NCBI RefSeq assembly: GCF_017498525.1
Contig: NZ_CP071796.1
Span: forward strand, 3,410,001 to 3,474,000
From: Ottowia testudinis
GTDB taxonomy: Bacteria > Pseudomonadota > Gammaproteobacteria > Burkholderiales > Burkholderiaceae_C
DNA: 64,000 nt
Reading direction: 5' to 3'
Positions 54,064 to 58,214 of this stretch are shown in pieces. How positions within the stretch are numbered: the stretch's first letter is position 1; every line of letters begins with the position of its first letter. The notes below the pieces were generated by a model, which was given only the letters and a program-made list of their open reading frames with translations, did not search any database and was not told the origin of the DNA. The position numbers and the translations under genes are program-made.

Positions 54064-54091
54064 CGCGGGCGGCCTGCCCGCGCGGCCGCCG

Positions 54092-54184
54092 GTAGGTGGG
54101 TGTTGAGCGCAGCGAAACCCAATAGGAGCGGTTATTTGCGAGCCGCCGAGTGTTGGGGTTCGCTGACGCTCACCGCCAACCTAC
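54092..54184. repeat. Inverted repeat (GTAGGT..TTGAGCGCAGCGAAACCCAA type)
   Basis: GTAGGTGGGTGTTGAGCGCA..GAAACCCAATA (54092-54125) faces TGTTGGGGTTCGCTGACGCT..CCTAC (54151-54184) with mismatches. This is a small non-autonomous element type common in proteobacteria, between gspF and the next gene. Confidence 0.75.
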
Positions 54185-54309
54185 GCCAGTCAATCATCGA
54201 GCGTGAGGGTGAGTCGAAATGTCCCGTTCACGTGCAAAAGCATTCACCGTTTTGTCACAAAACCGAAGCACAGTCGCCATCAAGCTGACCCACACCTGAA
54301 AGGCTGGCC

Positions 54310-54924
54310 ATGGCCATTGATCGCAGCGCATTTCCGCTGGATGCGCGTATCCAGCTCCTGTCAGACGCGGGCGAGTTGCGCATCACGGGCCGCGACGGCC
54401 GCGACCGCGCCTGGGCGCAAGGCGAGCGCGACTGGAGCCAGGAAACGCTGAACGTCTACGCCGACCGCGGCACGCGCCAGTTGCTGTTCAGCATCAGCGG
54501 CGCCAACCGTTCGCACCGCGAGACCGAGGAAGAGATCAGCGGCGCAGATGGCCGGATGCTGGGCACCTTCATCTACCGCACCGCCAGTGCGCTCACCAAG
54601 GCACGCTTCGACGTGTTCAGCGGCGCACGCGACAAGCGCACGCTGCGCTTCGTGATCGAAGAGCGCAGCGCCCTGCTGCGCTGGGTGCGCAATTTGTCGG
54701 AAGACCAGCCCTGGCTGGATTTTCTGCAAGGCTTCGTGCTGAACCCGACCTACGACATGCGGCTGGCCAGTGGCGGCAGCACCATCGCCCGCATCAAGAA
54801 GATGCCCTCGACCCTGGAAACGCATTTCCGCATCGAGTTGACGGGCGTGATTCCGAAAGCTGATCACGACTTGGCGCTGGCCGCCCTGATCAACGCCATC
54901 GCGCACGAAAGCGCCAGCGACTGA
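54310..54924 (+). CDS. Uncharacterised soluble protein upstream of the retron
   Basis: 204 residues, mixed alpha/beta, no signal peptide. A repeated beta-strand pattern (NVYADRGTRQLLFSISG, GADGRMLGTFIYRTASAL, HFRIELTGVIP) recalls LURP-one/scramblase-like folds, but this is a weak resemblance. It ends 31 bp before the retron RNA. Codon use is like the chromosome. Whether it belongs to the retron is unknown. Confidence 0.65.
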   Translation: MAIDRSAFPLDARIQLLSDAGELRITGRDGRDRAWAQGERDWSQETLNVYADRGTRQLLFSISGANRSHRETEEEISGADGRMLGTFIYRTASALTKARFDVFSGARDKRTLRFVIEERSALLRWVRNLSEDQPWLDFLQGFVLNPTYDMRLASGGSTIARIKKMPSTLETHFRIELTGVIPKADHDLALAALINAIAHESASD

Positions 54925-54943
54925 ACAGCCCCGCGCCGCCGCC

Positions 54944-54949
54944 CATAAT
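54944..54949 (+). promoter_or_regulatory. Probable -10 box of the retron RNA
   Basis: CATAAT with transcription expected to begin about 7 bases downstream, i.e. at 54956, exactly at the first base of the a1 arm. A -35 is weak (CTGAAC at 54921). Confidence 0.6.
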
Positions 54950-54955
54950 GCGGCT

Positions 54956-55120
54956 GGCCCCGGCGCTTCAAGAACCATCGAGAACGCGTTTTTGCGTTTT
55001 TCGGGCCGTGGGGCATCCCCACGGCAAGTTATCTTGTGTGCGCATTCCGGCGCGCGATCGGCCTTGCGCTGCCACGCAAACATGATCGCGCACGACCGGC
55101 TGGTTGAAGCGCCGCGGGCC
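54956..55120 (+). ncRNA. Retron msr-msd RNA
   Basis: a1 GGCCC-CGGCGCTTCAA (54956-54971) pairs with a2 TTGAAGCGCCG-C-GGGCC (55104-55120): 16 pairs with one bulged C. Inside, in order: hairpin AACGC/GCGTT (54983-54998); perfect 9-bp hairpin GCCGTGGGG-CAT-CCCCACGGC (55005-55025); and a long msd-like hairpin with CCGG/CCGG (55047-55050, 55096-55099), GCGCGATC/GATCGCGC (55052-55059, 55084-55091) and TTGCG/CGCAA (55064-55079). G54972 right after a1 is the expected branching guanosine. It lies 20 bp before the reverse-transcriptase gene. Boundaries of the DNA part are inferred. Confidence 0.85.
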
Positions 55121-55140
55121 ATCCTCTTCTACCCTGAAGC

Positions 55141-56502
55141 ATGGCGGCCGACCGCACCCCACGCAGCAACGCCATCGCGCTGGCGCATGCGCTGCTGGCC
55201 GATGCTGAGGTGCCGGGTGCACGAAGCCTGACCGCGCTGCACGATCGCGTCGCCGCGTGCCTCGGATTAACGGCGCCGCTGCCGCCCGGCCTGTTTCAGA
55301 TCTGCACCGAACTCGCCGCCTGGCCCGAGCCCATGTGGCGCCAGCACGGCTTGGACTCGCTGGCCGACGTGCTGCTGCAACGGCCCGAATGGCCTGCACC
55401 GCCCCACGCCTGGCAGGCGCGCCACTGGCTGCTGCGGCCCGCCCGCATGCAGCTGGCGCCCATGGCGCTGGCTGGCGTGGCCTTGCCCGAATTGCCCACG
55501 CACGCTGCCCTGGCCGCGTGGCTGGGCACCACGCCAGACGACTTGCAGTGGCTGGCGCACCCCTCGCAGCGCTGGCGCGAGAGCCAGCCCACCGACCGCC
55601 CGCACCGCAGCGTGGCGCCGCACTACCGCTACCAGTTGCTGACCAAACCGGGTGGCGGCCTGCGCCTGCTGGAGATGCCGCTGCCGCGCCTGAAGACGCT
55701 GCAACGGCGCCTGTTGCACGGCCTGCTGGCGCGCGTGCCGGTGCATGAGGCGGCGCGGGGTTTCGTGGCCGGGCGCGGCGTGCGCGGGCACGCCAATCTG
55801 CACGCGGGCCAGCCGTGCGTGCTGTGCTTCGACCTGCGCGATTTCTTCGGCAGCGTGGGTGGCGGCCGCATCCACGCCCTCTGGCGCAGCCTGGGTTACC
55901 CCGAAGGCGTGGCGCGCACGCTGATCCAGTTGTGCACCACGCGCACGCCGCCCGCGGTGCGCGAGCGCATGGCCGACGCAGGATCGCTCGATCGCCCCGC
56001 CGCACGGCGCCTGGCCAGCGCGCACCTGCCGCAGGGCGCGCCCACTTCGCCAGCGCTGGCCAACCTGAGCGCGTTCGGGCTGGATCTGCGGCTGGACGGG
56101 CTGGCCTGGCGCTTTGGCGCGCGCTATTCGCGCTACGCCGATGACCTGGTGTTCTCCGGCCCGGCGGCGCTGCGGCGCGACTTTCGTGTACTGCACGCCT
56201 GGGTCGAAGCCATTGCCCTGGACGAGGGCTTTGCGCTCAACCCCGCCAAGACACGCTGCCTGCCCGCGCACCGCCAGCAGCGCGTGACGGGCGTGGTGGT
56301 CAATGAGCGGCCAAATTTGCCCCGAGCCGATTACGACCGGCTGCGCGCCGAGTTGCATGCGCTGGGTCACCAAACCCGCGTGCCCGCCGCGCTCAAACCC
56401 CGCTTGCAGGGCCGCATCGCCTGGGCGCGGCAGTGGCTGGCGCCTGAGCGGGCGGCCAAGCTGCAGCGGCTGCTGGAGCGGATTGCGTTTGATGGCGCTT
56501 GA
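55141..56502 (+). CDS. Retron-type reverse transcriptase with N-terminal extension
   Basis: 453 residues. Residues 1-~115 are an extension with no recognised domain. The RT domain follows: YQLLTKPGGGLRLLEMPLPRLKTLQ (RT1), RGFVAGRGVRGHANLHAG at 206-223 (retron motif usually NAxxH, here HAxxH), FDLRDFF with Asp231 (RT3), LPQGAPTSPALAN at 296-308 (RT4), RYSRYADDLVFSG with Asp334/Asp335 (RT5), and VTG at 382-384, diagnostic of retron RTs. It synthesises msDNA from the upstream RNA. Length and the extension recall the long myxobacterial retron RTs. No separate effector gene is obvious; function as phage defence is inferred. Confidence 0.93.
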   Translation: MAADRTPRSNAIALAHALLADAEVPGARSLTALHDRVAACLGLTAPLPPGLFQICTELAAWPEPMWRQHGLDSLADVLLQRPEWPAPPHAWQARHWLLRPARMQLAPMALAGVALPELPTHAALAAWLGTTPDDLQWLAHPSQRWRESQPTDRPHRSVAPHYRYQLLTKPGGGLRLLEMPLPRLKTLQRRLLHGLLARVPVHEAARGFVAGRGVRGHANLHAGQPCVLCFDLRDFFGSVGGGRIHALWRSLGYPEGVARTLIQLCTTRTPPAVRERMADAGSLDRPAARRLASAHLPQGAPTSPALANLSAFGLDLRLDGLAWRFGARYSRYADDLVFSGPAALRRDFRVLHAWVEAIALDEGFALNPAKTRCLPAHRQQRVTGVVVNERPNLPRADYDRLRAELHALGHQTRVPAALKPRLQGRIAWARQWLAPERAAKLQRLLERIAFDGA

Positions 56503-56520
56503 GCCATGCACGCCTCTCTT

Positions 56521-56544
56521 CAATGTAGTAACATTGCTACATTG
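56521..56544. promoter_or_regulatory. Palindromic operator of the toxin-antitoxin pair
   Basis: CAATGTAG, 8 bases, CTACATTG: perfect 8-bp arms, 15 bp before the antitoxin start. Typical of autorepression by antitoxin-toxin complexes. Confidence 0.75.
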
Positions 56545-56559
56545 AGCCAGGAAACCCCC

Positions 56560-56835
56560 ATGCCCACCACCCTCACCTCCCGCGAATTCAACCAGGACCA
56601 TGGCCGCGCCAAGCGCGCCGCCAATCAAAGCCCGGTCATCATCACCGACCGCGGAGAGCCGGCCCACGTGCTGATGAGTTTTGCCGAGTACCAGCGGCTG
56701 ACGACGAAGCAGACCAAGCCCAAGTCGATCGTGGAGGCGCTGGCCATGCCGCCGGGCGGCGAAGACATCGACTTCGAATCAGTCCTGCCGCGCTGGCGCG
56801 AATTTCCGCCCGCCGCCCCCTTCGATTTCGATTGA
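56560..56835 (+). CDS. Antitoxin, Phd/YefM family
   Basis: 91 residues: TSREFNQDHGRAKRAANQSP, then VIITDRGEPAHVLMSFAEYQ, the Phd/YefM DNA-binding fold, and a disordered acidic C-terminus that should bind the toxin. Start at 56560 is after AGGA; an upstream ATG at 56506 would overlap the operator. The gene ends 9 bp before the PIN toxin, so both form one operon. Confidence 0.92.
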   Translation: MPTTLTSREFNQDHGRAKRAANQSPVIITDRGEPAHVLMSFAEYQRLTTKQTKPKSIVEALAMPPGGEDIDFESVLPRWREFPPAAPFDFD

Positions 56836-56844
56836 GCGCCGACC

Positions 56845-57270
56845 GTGTTCCTGCTGGACACCAACACGATTTCAGAACTGCGCAAAGTCGGCGCAGGCAA
56901 GGCCGATCCCCGCGTGGCCCGCTGGGTCCAAGGCGTGGCCCCCACTGAGCTGCATGTGTCGGCCATTACCCTGGAAGAGCTGGAAATCGGCGTGCTGCGC
57001 ATGGAGCGGCGCGATGCGGCGCAAGGTGCCGTGCTGCGGCACTGGCTGGCGCAGCAGGTGCTGCCGGCGTTCGACGGCCGCATCCTGCCGGTGGACGCGC
57101 CGGTGGTGCGGCTGAGTGCCCGCATGCACGTGCCCAATCCGCAACCGACACGCGATGCGTACATCGCCGCCACCGCCCTGGTGCACGGCCTCACCGTCGT
57201 CAGCCGCAACGTAGCCGATTTCGCCGCCTGCGGCGCGTCGGTGCTCAACCCCTGGGAATGGCCTGTCTGA
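56845..57270 (+). CDS. PIN-domain toxin (VapC-like RNase)
   Basis: 141 residues, GTG start. PIN domain acidic residues: Asp5 in LLDTNTISELRK, Glu at VSAITLEELEIGVL, Asp in TRDAYIAATALVHGL and the final VVSRNVADFAACG. Predicted metal-dependent endoribonuclease, possibly cutting tRNA as VapC toxins do. Its stop codon overlaps the 5'-nucleotidase start (TGATG). Confidence 0.92.
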   Translation: MFLLDTNTISELRKVGAGKADPRVARWVQGVAPTELHVSAITLEELEIGVLRMERRDAAQGAVLRHWLAQQVLPAFDGRILPVDAPVVRLSARMHVPNPQPTRDAYIAATALVHGLTVVSRNVADFAACGASVLNPWEWPV

Positions 57271-58214
57271 TGCCTGCCACGCTGCAAGACCAACTCGTCG
57301 TCGCCATCTCCTCGCGCGCGCTGTTCGATTTCGAGGAAGAAAACTGCCTGTTTGAAACCGGCGACGCCGCCGCCTACATGCAATTGCAGCTCGAACGCCT
57401 GGATGTGCCGGCGCGGCCCGGGGTGGCGTTTTCGCTGGTCAAGAAGCTGCTGGCCTTCAACGACGCGGCGCAGCGGCGGGTGGAGGTGGTGGTGCTGTCG
57501 CGCAACGACCCGGTCAGCGGCATGCGCGTGTTCCGCAGCGTCGCCGCGGCGGGCATGACGGTGGAGCGCGGCGTGTTCACGCAGGGGCGCGACCCGTTCC
57601 GCTACCTGCGGCCGCTGGGCGCGCACCTGTTTCTGTCGGCCAACGAGGCCGATGTGCGCCAGGCGCTGGGGTTGGGCTTTCCGGCCGCGCGCGTGGCCAT
57701 CGGCTCGCCGCAGGCGGGCAGCAACCACCCGGACGAAGTGCGCATTGCCTTCGACGGCGACGCCGTGCTGTTCGCCGACGAGGCCGAGCGCGTATACCAG
57801 GCCAAGGGCCTGGCCGCGTTCCAGAAGCACGAAAAACTCAAGGCCGAACTGCCCCTGCCCGACGGCCCCTTCAAGCCGCTGCTGGCCGCGCTGCACCGCC
57901 TGCAGCAGGCCGGCAGCCCCGTCATGCGCCTGCGCACCGCGCTGGTCACCGCGCGCAGCGCGCCGGCGCACGAGCGCGCCATCCGCACGCTGATGCACTG
58001 GGGCGTGGGCGTGGATGAGGCCATGTTCCTCGGCGGCCTGCCCAAGGGCGAGTTCCTGCGCGAATTCGAGCCCGACTTTTTCTTTGACGACCAGACCGGG
58101 CACATCGAACACGCCGCGCGCCACGTGCCGGCGGGCCATGTGGCCGCGGGCGTTACAAATTCCGCGCCTGCCGCGGAAACCACGGCGCGCCGCGCGCGCT
58201 CCAACCGGGCATGA
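57270..58214 (+). CDS. 5'-nucleotidase (cytosolic NT5C1-like)
   Basis: 314 residues. LVVAISSRALFDFEEENCLFE at the start and RIAFDGDAVLFADEAERVYQ at about 152-171 (with the HAD-like DGD) match the bacterial homologues of mammalian cytosolic 5'-nucleotidase I. Hydrolyses nucleoside 5'-monophosphates, though the substrate is unproven here. The start overlaps the toxin stop, so it may be read through from the toxin-antitoxin promoter. An Ala/Arg-rich tail follows the core. Confidence 0.88.
   Translation: MPATLQDQLVVAISSRALFDFEEENCLFETGDAAAYMQLQLERLDVPARPGVAFSLVKKLLAFNDAAQRRVEVVVLSRNDPVSGMRVFRSVAAAGMTVERGVFTQGRDPFRYLRPLGAHLFLSANEADVRQALGLGFPAARVAIGSPQAGSNHPDEVRIAFDGDAVLFADEAERVYQAKGLAAFQKHEKLKAELPLPDGPFKPLLAALHRLQQAGSPVMRLRTALVTARSAPAHERAIRTLMHWGVGVDEAMFLGGLPKGEFLREFEPDFFFDDQTGHIEHAARHVPAGHVAAGVTNSAPAAETTARRARSNRA

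Follow-up and report, generated by a model that had tools for sequence, protein, structure and literature searches.

The 64,000-nucleotide stretch of Ottowia testudinis DNA analysed here (the window) very probably carries a retron of the kind that PADLOC labels RT_other or RT_outgroup, a unit of one structured RNA and one reverse transcriptase (RT), with the role of that unit standing outside this estimate. An msr-msd RNA of 164 nt (54956–55119, forward strand), with a1/a2 pairing, msr hairpins within the range of one to three and one long msd hairpin, lies upstream of an RT gene of 453 codons (55141–56502, forward strand), and comparison of sequences between loci confirms that this RNA-RT feature goes far beyond chance. 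The retron, a type of small bacterial element in which an enzyme turns a section of the element's own folded RNA into short DNA, belongs to a little-studied group that is scattered through the family of O. testudinis; no toxin gene of the usual retron-partner type was found with it. A class labelled only ‘other’ or ‘outgroup’ by PADLOC thereby gains a conserved RNA that can be searched for with a model, together with a promoter in a fixed place, and, since the RNA and the RT alone are common to the loci, the workings of retrons that lack an adjacent effector become directly testable with a two-part construct. It also adds one RT/RNA pair to those with which short DNA might be produced in cells.

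The translated RT reading frame contains the motifs LPQGAPTSP, RYADDL and VTGVVVN, which bears out the retron-type RT proposed in a first-pass annotation of this DNA, and it matches the Pfam family RVT_1. Among the PADLOC models the best score is that of RT_other (391.6 bits), followed by RT_outgroup (376.6 bits) and RT_XIII (262.7 bits), and RT_other and RT_outgroup each match all ten members of an RT alignment at E ≤ 1e-30. The NCBIfam model retron_St85_RT reaches 153.8 bits, which is below its cut-off of 235, and the non-retron NCBIfam models score low (Drt2, 33.2 bits; group II RT, 28.9 bits). Judged on profile and sequence scores, the enzyme is closer to retron RTs than to group II RTs (392 bits for RT_other versus 29 bits for the group II RT model), and these scores do not refute the retron reading of the first-pass annotation. 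The nearest solved structures are the retron Ec86, Ec67 and Ec78 RTs, and a homologous RT core is shared with Eco1 (Ec86) and the other solved retron RTs. The alignment in a whole-protein search against these solved RTs begins only at about residue 160; the RT_other match likewise starts at profile position 119, with the N-terminal part of the protein unaligned with the first 118 positions. The RT core runs from about residue 155, and the N-terminal region, residues 1 to about 110, is without a Pfam match; the N-terminal pieces of five proteins gave no Pfam match at E values up to 5, and a structure prediction from four sequences was unusable (mean pLDDT 50.8). The genome itself contains one match to the RT query.

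The type names used for this RT are PADLOC labels only: RT_other and RT_outgroup are its best models, and these labels assign no type and, in the material available, have no RNA or effector attached; the available text of PMC9252829 does not explain them. The suggestion that the retron may be undescribed holds insofar as no Rfam family scores above threshold for the RNA segment, but not for the protein, for which PADLOC already has RT models of this sort. The literature search found no paper on this retron, subscription papers lying outside its coverage. Retron-Bth1 is alike by description, the available text of PMC12548924 giving it an unclassified RT and no evident effector, but differs in that a group II intron interrupts its putative RT and in that the retron is carried outside the bacterial genome, on another element (PMC12548924).

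The RNA lies in a gap of 216 bp between the preceding reading frame, whose stop codon ends at 54924, and the RT gene, the gap length being that given previously. Its ends are formed by the a1 arm (54956–54971) and the a2 arm (55104–55119), both on the forward strand and the latter placed by arm scan and covariation. The segment that they bound was correctly recognised, but is 164 rather than 165 nt long, and the inverted repeat described as 16 bp is present with only 14 Watson-Crick pairs over 16 positions (counted by hand) and a longest perfect run of 11 bp. Between the arms, on the same strand, lie msr hairpin 1 (54979–55003), which is sequence-variable, has approximate ends and is placed from the fold, with no modelled helix in the covariance model R1; msr hairpin 2 (55005–55025), a 9-bp stem with a 3-nt loop (GCCGUGGGG-CAU-CCCCACGGC), supported by fold and covariation; and the msd hairpin (55047–55099), likewise supported by both, which is the putative template for most of the msDNA. 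The succession of two hairpins and a long one, noticed in the first-pass annotation, is thus seen in the fold, positions 54950–55125 folding at −96.1 kcal/mol compared with a mean of −73.3 kcal/mol for shuffled sequences (z = −5.8, none of 200 shuffles being as good). The 11-bp arm run is only moderately unusual, since 11 of 1000 dinucleotide-shuffled gap sequences have a run at least as long, and it is therefore comparison between loci that has to carry the case. Counting against the retron reading, the DNA product predicted at 73 nt shows no better folding than its shuffled versions (z −1.0).

Twelve of 36 loci, the window included, were chosen by eye from the best arms of an inverted-repeat scan, with minus-strand loci turned, as those whose inner end resembles CAA...TTG and whose arms span 149–174 nt. 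RNAalifold on a MAFFT alignment of these 12, which is independent of R1, yielded 37 pairs, 19 of them with at least one compensatory change on both sides. R1 was built from the same 12 loci and run on all 36, of which 24 were held out. Sixteen of the 24 have an RNA before the RT at 40 bits or more, four (L031, L032, L034, L035) have weak matches there at 25–31 bits, one (L003) is a broken fragment at 24 bits, and R1 found nothing before the RT in the other three (L004, L033, L036). The match of R1 to the window (54954–55121) reaches 139.9 bits by construction, the window having been a training sequence. In 30 model-aligned sequences (R1 matches at E ≤ 1e-5, among them the 12 training sequences), an alignment fitted to the R1 structure, 95.0% of pair cells pair compared with 75.9% in shuffles, and sliding the partners by 1–3 columns reduces pairing to 37–50%. 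The compensatory changes that the first-pass annotation had proposed to look for in relatives are present in this set, with changes on both sides in 26 of the 37 pairs overall and in 14 of the 15 modelled a1/a2 pairs. Modelled helices 4 and 5, which make up the msd hairpin, show such changes in 9 of 10 pairs, and msr hairpin 2 is paired in 98.5% of cells among the 30 sequences.

Also conserved is the position of a promoter element. The −10 element CATAAT (54944–54949, forward strand) stands 6 nt before a1, and a TATAAT-like hexamer (at least 4 of 6 positions) is found 3–5 nt before position 1 of R1 in 30 of 37 loci, whereas at 23 upstream offsets the same test succeeds in 1.4% of cases on average and in 5.4% at most; with a freer spacing range the hexamer is found in 32 of the 37 (control mean 6.7%, maximum 13.5%). 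Position 1 of R1 is 2 nt before a1 in the window, which would put the transcription start at a1 or beside it, as the placing of the box had suggested, and the RNA is expected to begin at or next to 54956. The best −35 match in the window is 4 of 6, and a perfect TTGACA lies 18 nt upstream in three Burkholderia loci and in L087, a locus of another family.

Searches with the RT gave 4 matches at E ≤ 0.001 among 29 genomes of the genus, 39 at E ≤ 1e-30 among 399 of the family and 8 at E ≤ 1e-30 among 321 of the class, each count including the window copy, and a scan of genome contigs gave only three loci. R1 alone produced 33 matches at E ≤ 0.01 in the 399 family genomes, 28 of which reach at least 40 bits, the remaining five scoring 24.7–26.7 bits and four of these being partial. 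Twenty-seven of the 28 strong RNAs sit in genomes with an RT match; the 28th, in genome G308, precedes a broken RT in which a short unrelated stretch takes the place of the missing middle (about residues 217–380 of relatives). Twelve of the 39 RT-bearing family genomes are without an RNA at 40 bits, two of them (G113 and G288, which are L032 and L031) having weak matches and the other ten having RTs in longer open frames of 663–791 codons, one of which, L033, falls in a separate clade of the RT tree. When R1 alone was run on 300 genomes of the order, five matched at E ≤ 1e-4, that of the window included, and in all four others, from four other families, the RNA is followed directly by a homologous RT gene. 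Among 14 additional loci, R1 matches upstream of the RT gene in three of Burkholderia and in L087 (44.8–49.9 bits) and is weak again in L031, L032, L034 and L035; it found nothing ahead of the RT in L119 (Tsukamurella), L120 (Methylobacterium), L121 (Priestia), L088, L090 and L092. RTs without a strong RNA, here and in the family sets, count against the retron reading. L033, L004 and L120 belong to a second clade of longer RTs (about 580–640 aa as started) without R1-type RNA. Broken RTs with an RNA still recognisable in front were observed in L078 (G308), L079 (G241), L080 (G093) and L083 (G018), the RNA of G018 being only a fragment; where the genome is a draft, an interrupted frame may be due to faulty sequencing.

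A tree built from 40 RTs, none of them a group II or DGR enzyme, puts the window copy in a group with two RTs from genus g114 (98/97), apart from the RT of its genus mate L002. Because of this grouping and the patchy distribution, the retron may have moved horizontally. Many myxococcal retrons, in contrast, are described in the available text of PMC6868368 as vertically inherited, whereas the group of the window retron is patchy and its RT groups with another genus. The ratio dN/dS in seven close pairs is 0.14–0.37 for the RT core and 0.17–0.57 for the N-terminal part, with the latter above the former in all seven; on these ratios both parts are under purifying selection, and the N-terminal part is the less constrained.

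The anatomy and conservation of the RNA are established by the fold and the comparisons, and its priming, product and product length are proposed from known retrons, which, according to the available text of PMC6868368, combine an a1/a2 stem with one to three msr hairpins, one long msd hairpin and, where a1 ends on its inner side, a guanosine used for priming. A sigma-70 type promoter would start the transcript at a1, the RT being probably read from the same transcript or an extension of it, and the RNA would fold through a1/a2 pairing. Msr hairpin 2 is probably the recognition element for the RT, by analogy with the 8–9-bp stems with a 3-nt loop that the Eco1 and Eco3 RTs are described as recognising (PMC6868368); its 9 bp and 3 nt match the short msr stem and 3-nt loop reported there for Eco1. 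The RT would then take as primer the 2'-OH of the guanosine that follows a1 (about 54972, forward strand), a putative branch nucleotide placed directly 3' of a1 (CAA-G) by analogy with PMC6868368, and would copy the msd from about 55103, just 5' of a2, toward about 55030–55040, so that the expected product is a branched RNA-DNA with roughly 65–75 nt of DNA. Against this, the CAAG priming context differs from the TAGC, CAGA, CAGC, GAGC and ACGC given for known retrons (PMC6868368); it is invariant in the 12-sequence MAFFT alignment but is not among the invariant columns in an alignment of the 16 held-out RNAs and the window. On this model the window copy would be active and produce msDNA, and it may act in phage defence.

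With respect to its protein partners, the retron unit appears to consist of the RNA and the RT alone. Twenty neighbourhoods of 15–17 kb and that of the window were compared, with genes called by a rule based on GC by codon position and clustered by BLASTP. The RT cluster occurs in 20 of the 21, the exception (L043) being a locus in which the rule took an overlapping opposite-strand frame, and among ORFs of at least 70 aa no non-RT gene, as a partner effector would be, is common to more than five of the 21. In 13 of the 21, the next gene called downstream runs on the opposite strand; a few of these genes overlap the RT widely and are perhaps miscalled (L043, L051). Nine further neighbourhoods served for checks of the RT only. 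No adjacent or fused effector gene was recognised, and an unknown fused effector may exist; compared with Eco1, the window retron is without a neighbouring effector in these searches and has an extra N-terminal region in its RT.

The role that seems most likely is the sensing of phage or stress, and the N-terminal region of the RT or a protein encoded elsewhere might, speculatively, replace the neighbouring effector. An effector acting in trans from elsewhere in the genome, a proposal that bears on function only, would fit with the lack of a neighbour shared across the family and with an RT under purifying selection, but it has no candidate and is possible rather than probable. More tentatively, there could be in Burkholderiales and relatives a two-component retron class without a separate effector, in which the faster-evolving N-terminal region of the RT is itself the effector or sensor, restrained by its own msDNA, a reading that we regard as somewhat unlikely. 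The myxobacterial retrons Mx162/Mxa1, Mx65/Mxa2, Sa163 and Ne144 are not known to have an effector gene. By description, their RTs have an extended N-terminal region, as here (PMC6868368, available text).

For the window locus, these searches lend no support to the usual reading as a tripartite defence system. Such a reading would make the effector either the VapBC-like pair downstream, which has Phd/YefM and PIN domains and begins within 60 nt of the RT stop, or the 204-aa ORF upstream, which shares an inserted stretch with the retron, and is very unlikely in either form. The stretch in question (54071–56522) is missing in relatives from the genus at the T2SF-to-VapBC/5'-nucleotidase site, where a T2SF gene is near a 5'-nucleotidase gene in 15 of 19 loci; a genus mate that has its own retron on another contig (G012) is without the insert at this site (L095). 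The VapBC pair occurs at the same site without the stretch in three of the 19 genus loci (L100, L111, L113) and so is not tied to the retron, and it clusters with nothing in the 20 other neighbourhoods. The 204-aa ORF (54310–54924), which has no Pfam, PADLOC or NCBIfam match, has no relative in these 20 neighbourhoods and no match in the other 28 genus genomes; among 200 family genomes its sole relative besides itself, a distant one (26%), is in G058, which is not one of the 39 family genomes with an RT match. The 5'-nucleotidase gene (57258–58214; PF06189), which matches the PADLOC candidate defence model PDC-S08 at 432 bits, was rejected as retron-linked, being present in 26 of 29 genus genomes, its own included. 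The toxin-antitoxin pair itself (56523–57270; Phd/YefM antitoxin and PIN-domain toxin) is variably present at the site in the genus and is preceded by a palindrome-like stretch (ATGTAGTAACATTGCTACAT).

That the locus is a decayed, inactive remnant is equally improbable: some relatives are broken, with the middle of the RT missing in G308, the RT in two frames in L029 and L030 and an RNA fragment fused to the RT from about residue 259 in G018, but the window RT is intact (YADD, LPQG, VTG) and its RNA pairs as that of the family does. Also very unlikely is that the RNA, instead of being a template for msDNA, regulates the RT gene in cis as a leader or attenuator, for although it occupies the 5' region of that gene, with 21 nt separating a2 from the start codon in the window, the a1-msr-msd-a2 order, the retron RT and the conserved beginning of the RNA at a1 are all as expected of a retron, and no Rfam family exceeds its threshold.

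As to origin, a phage or prophage source was rejected, no relatives having been found in viral contigs by protein or alignment. An imperfect inverted repeat (54090–54190) is a dispersed element with 37 matches in its own genome at E ≤ 0.001, itself included, some of these being the two strands of one site.
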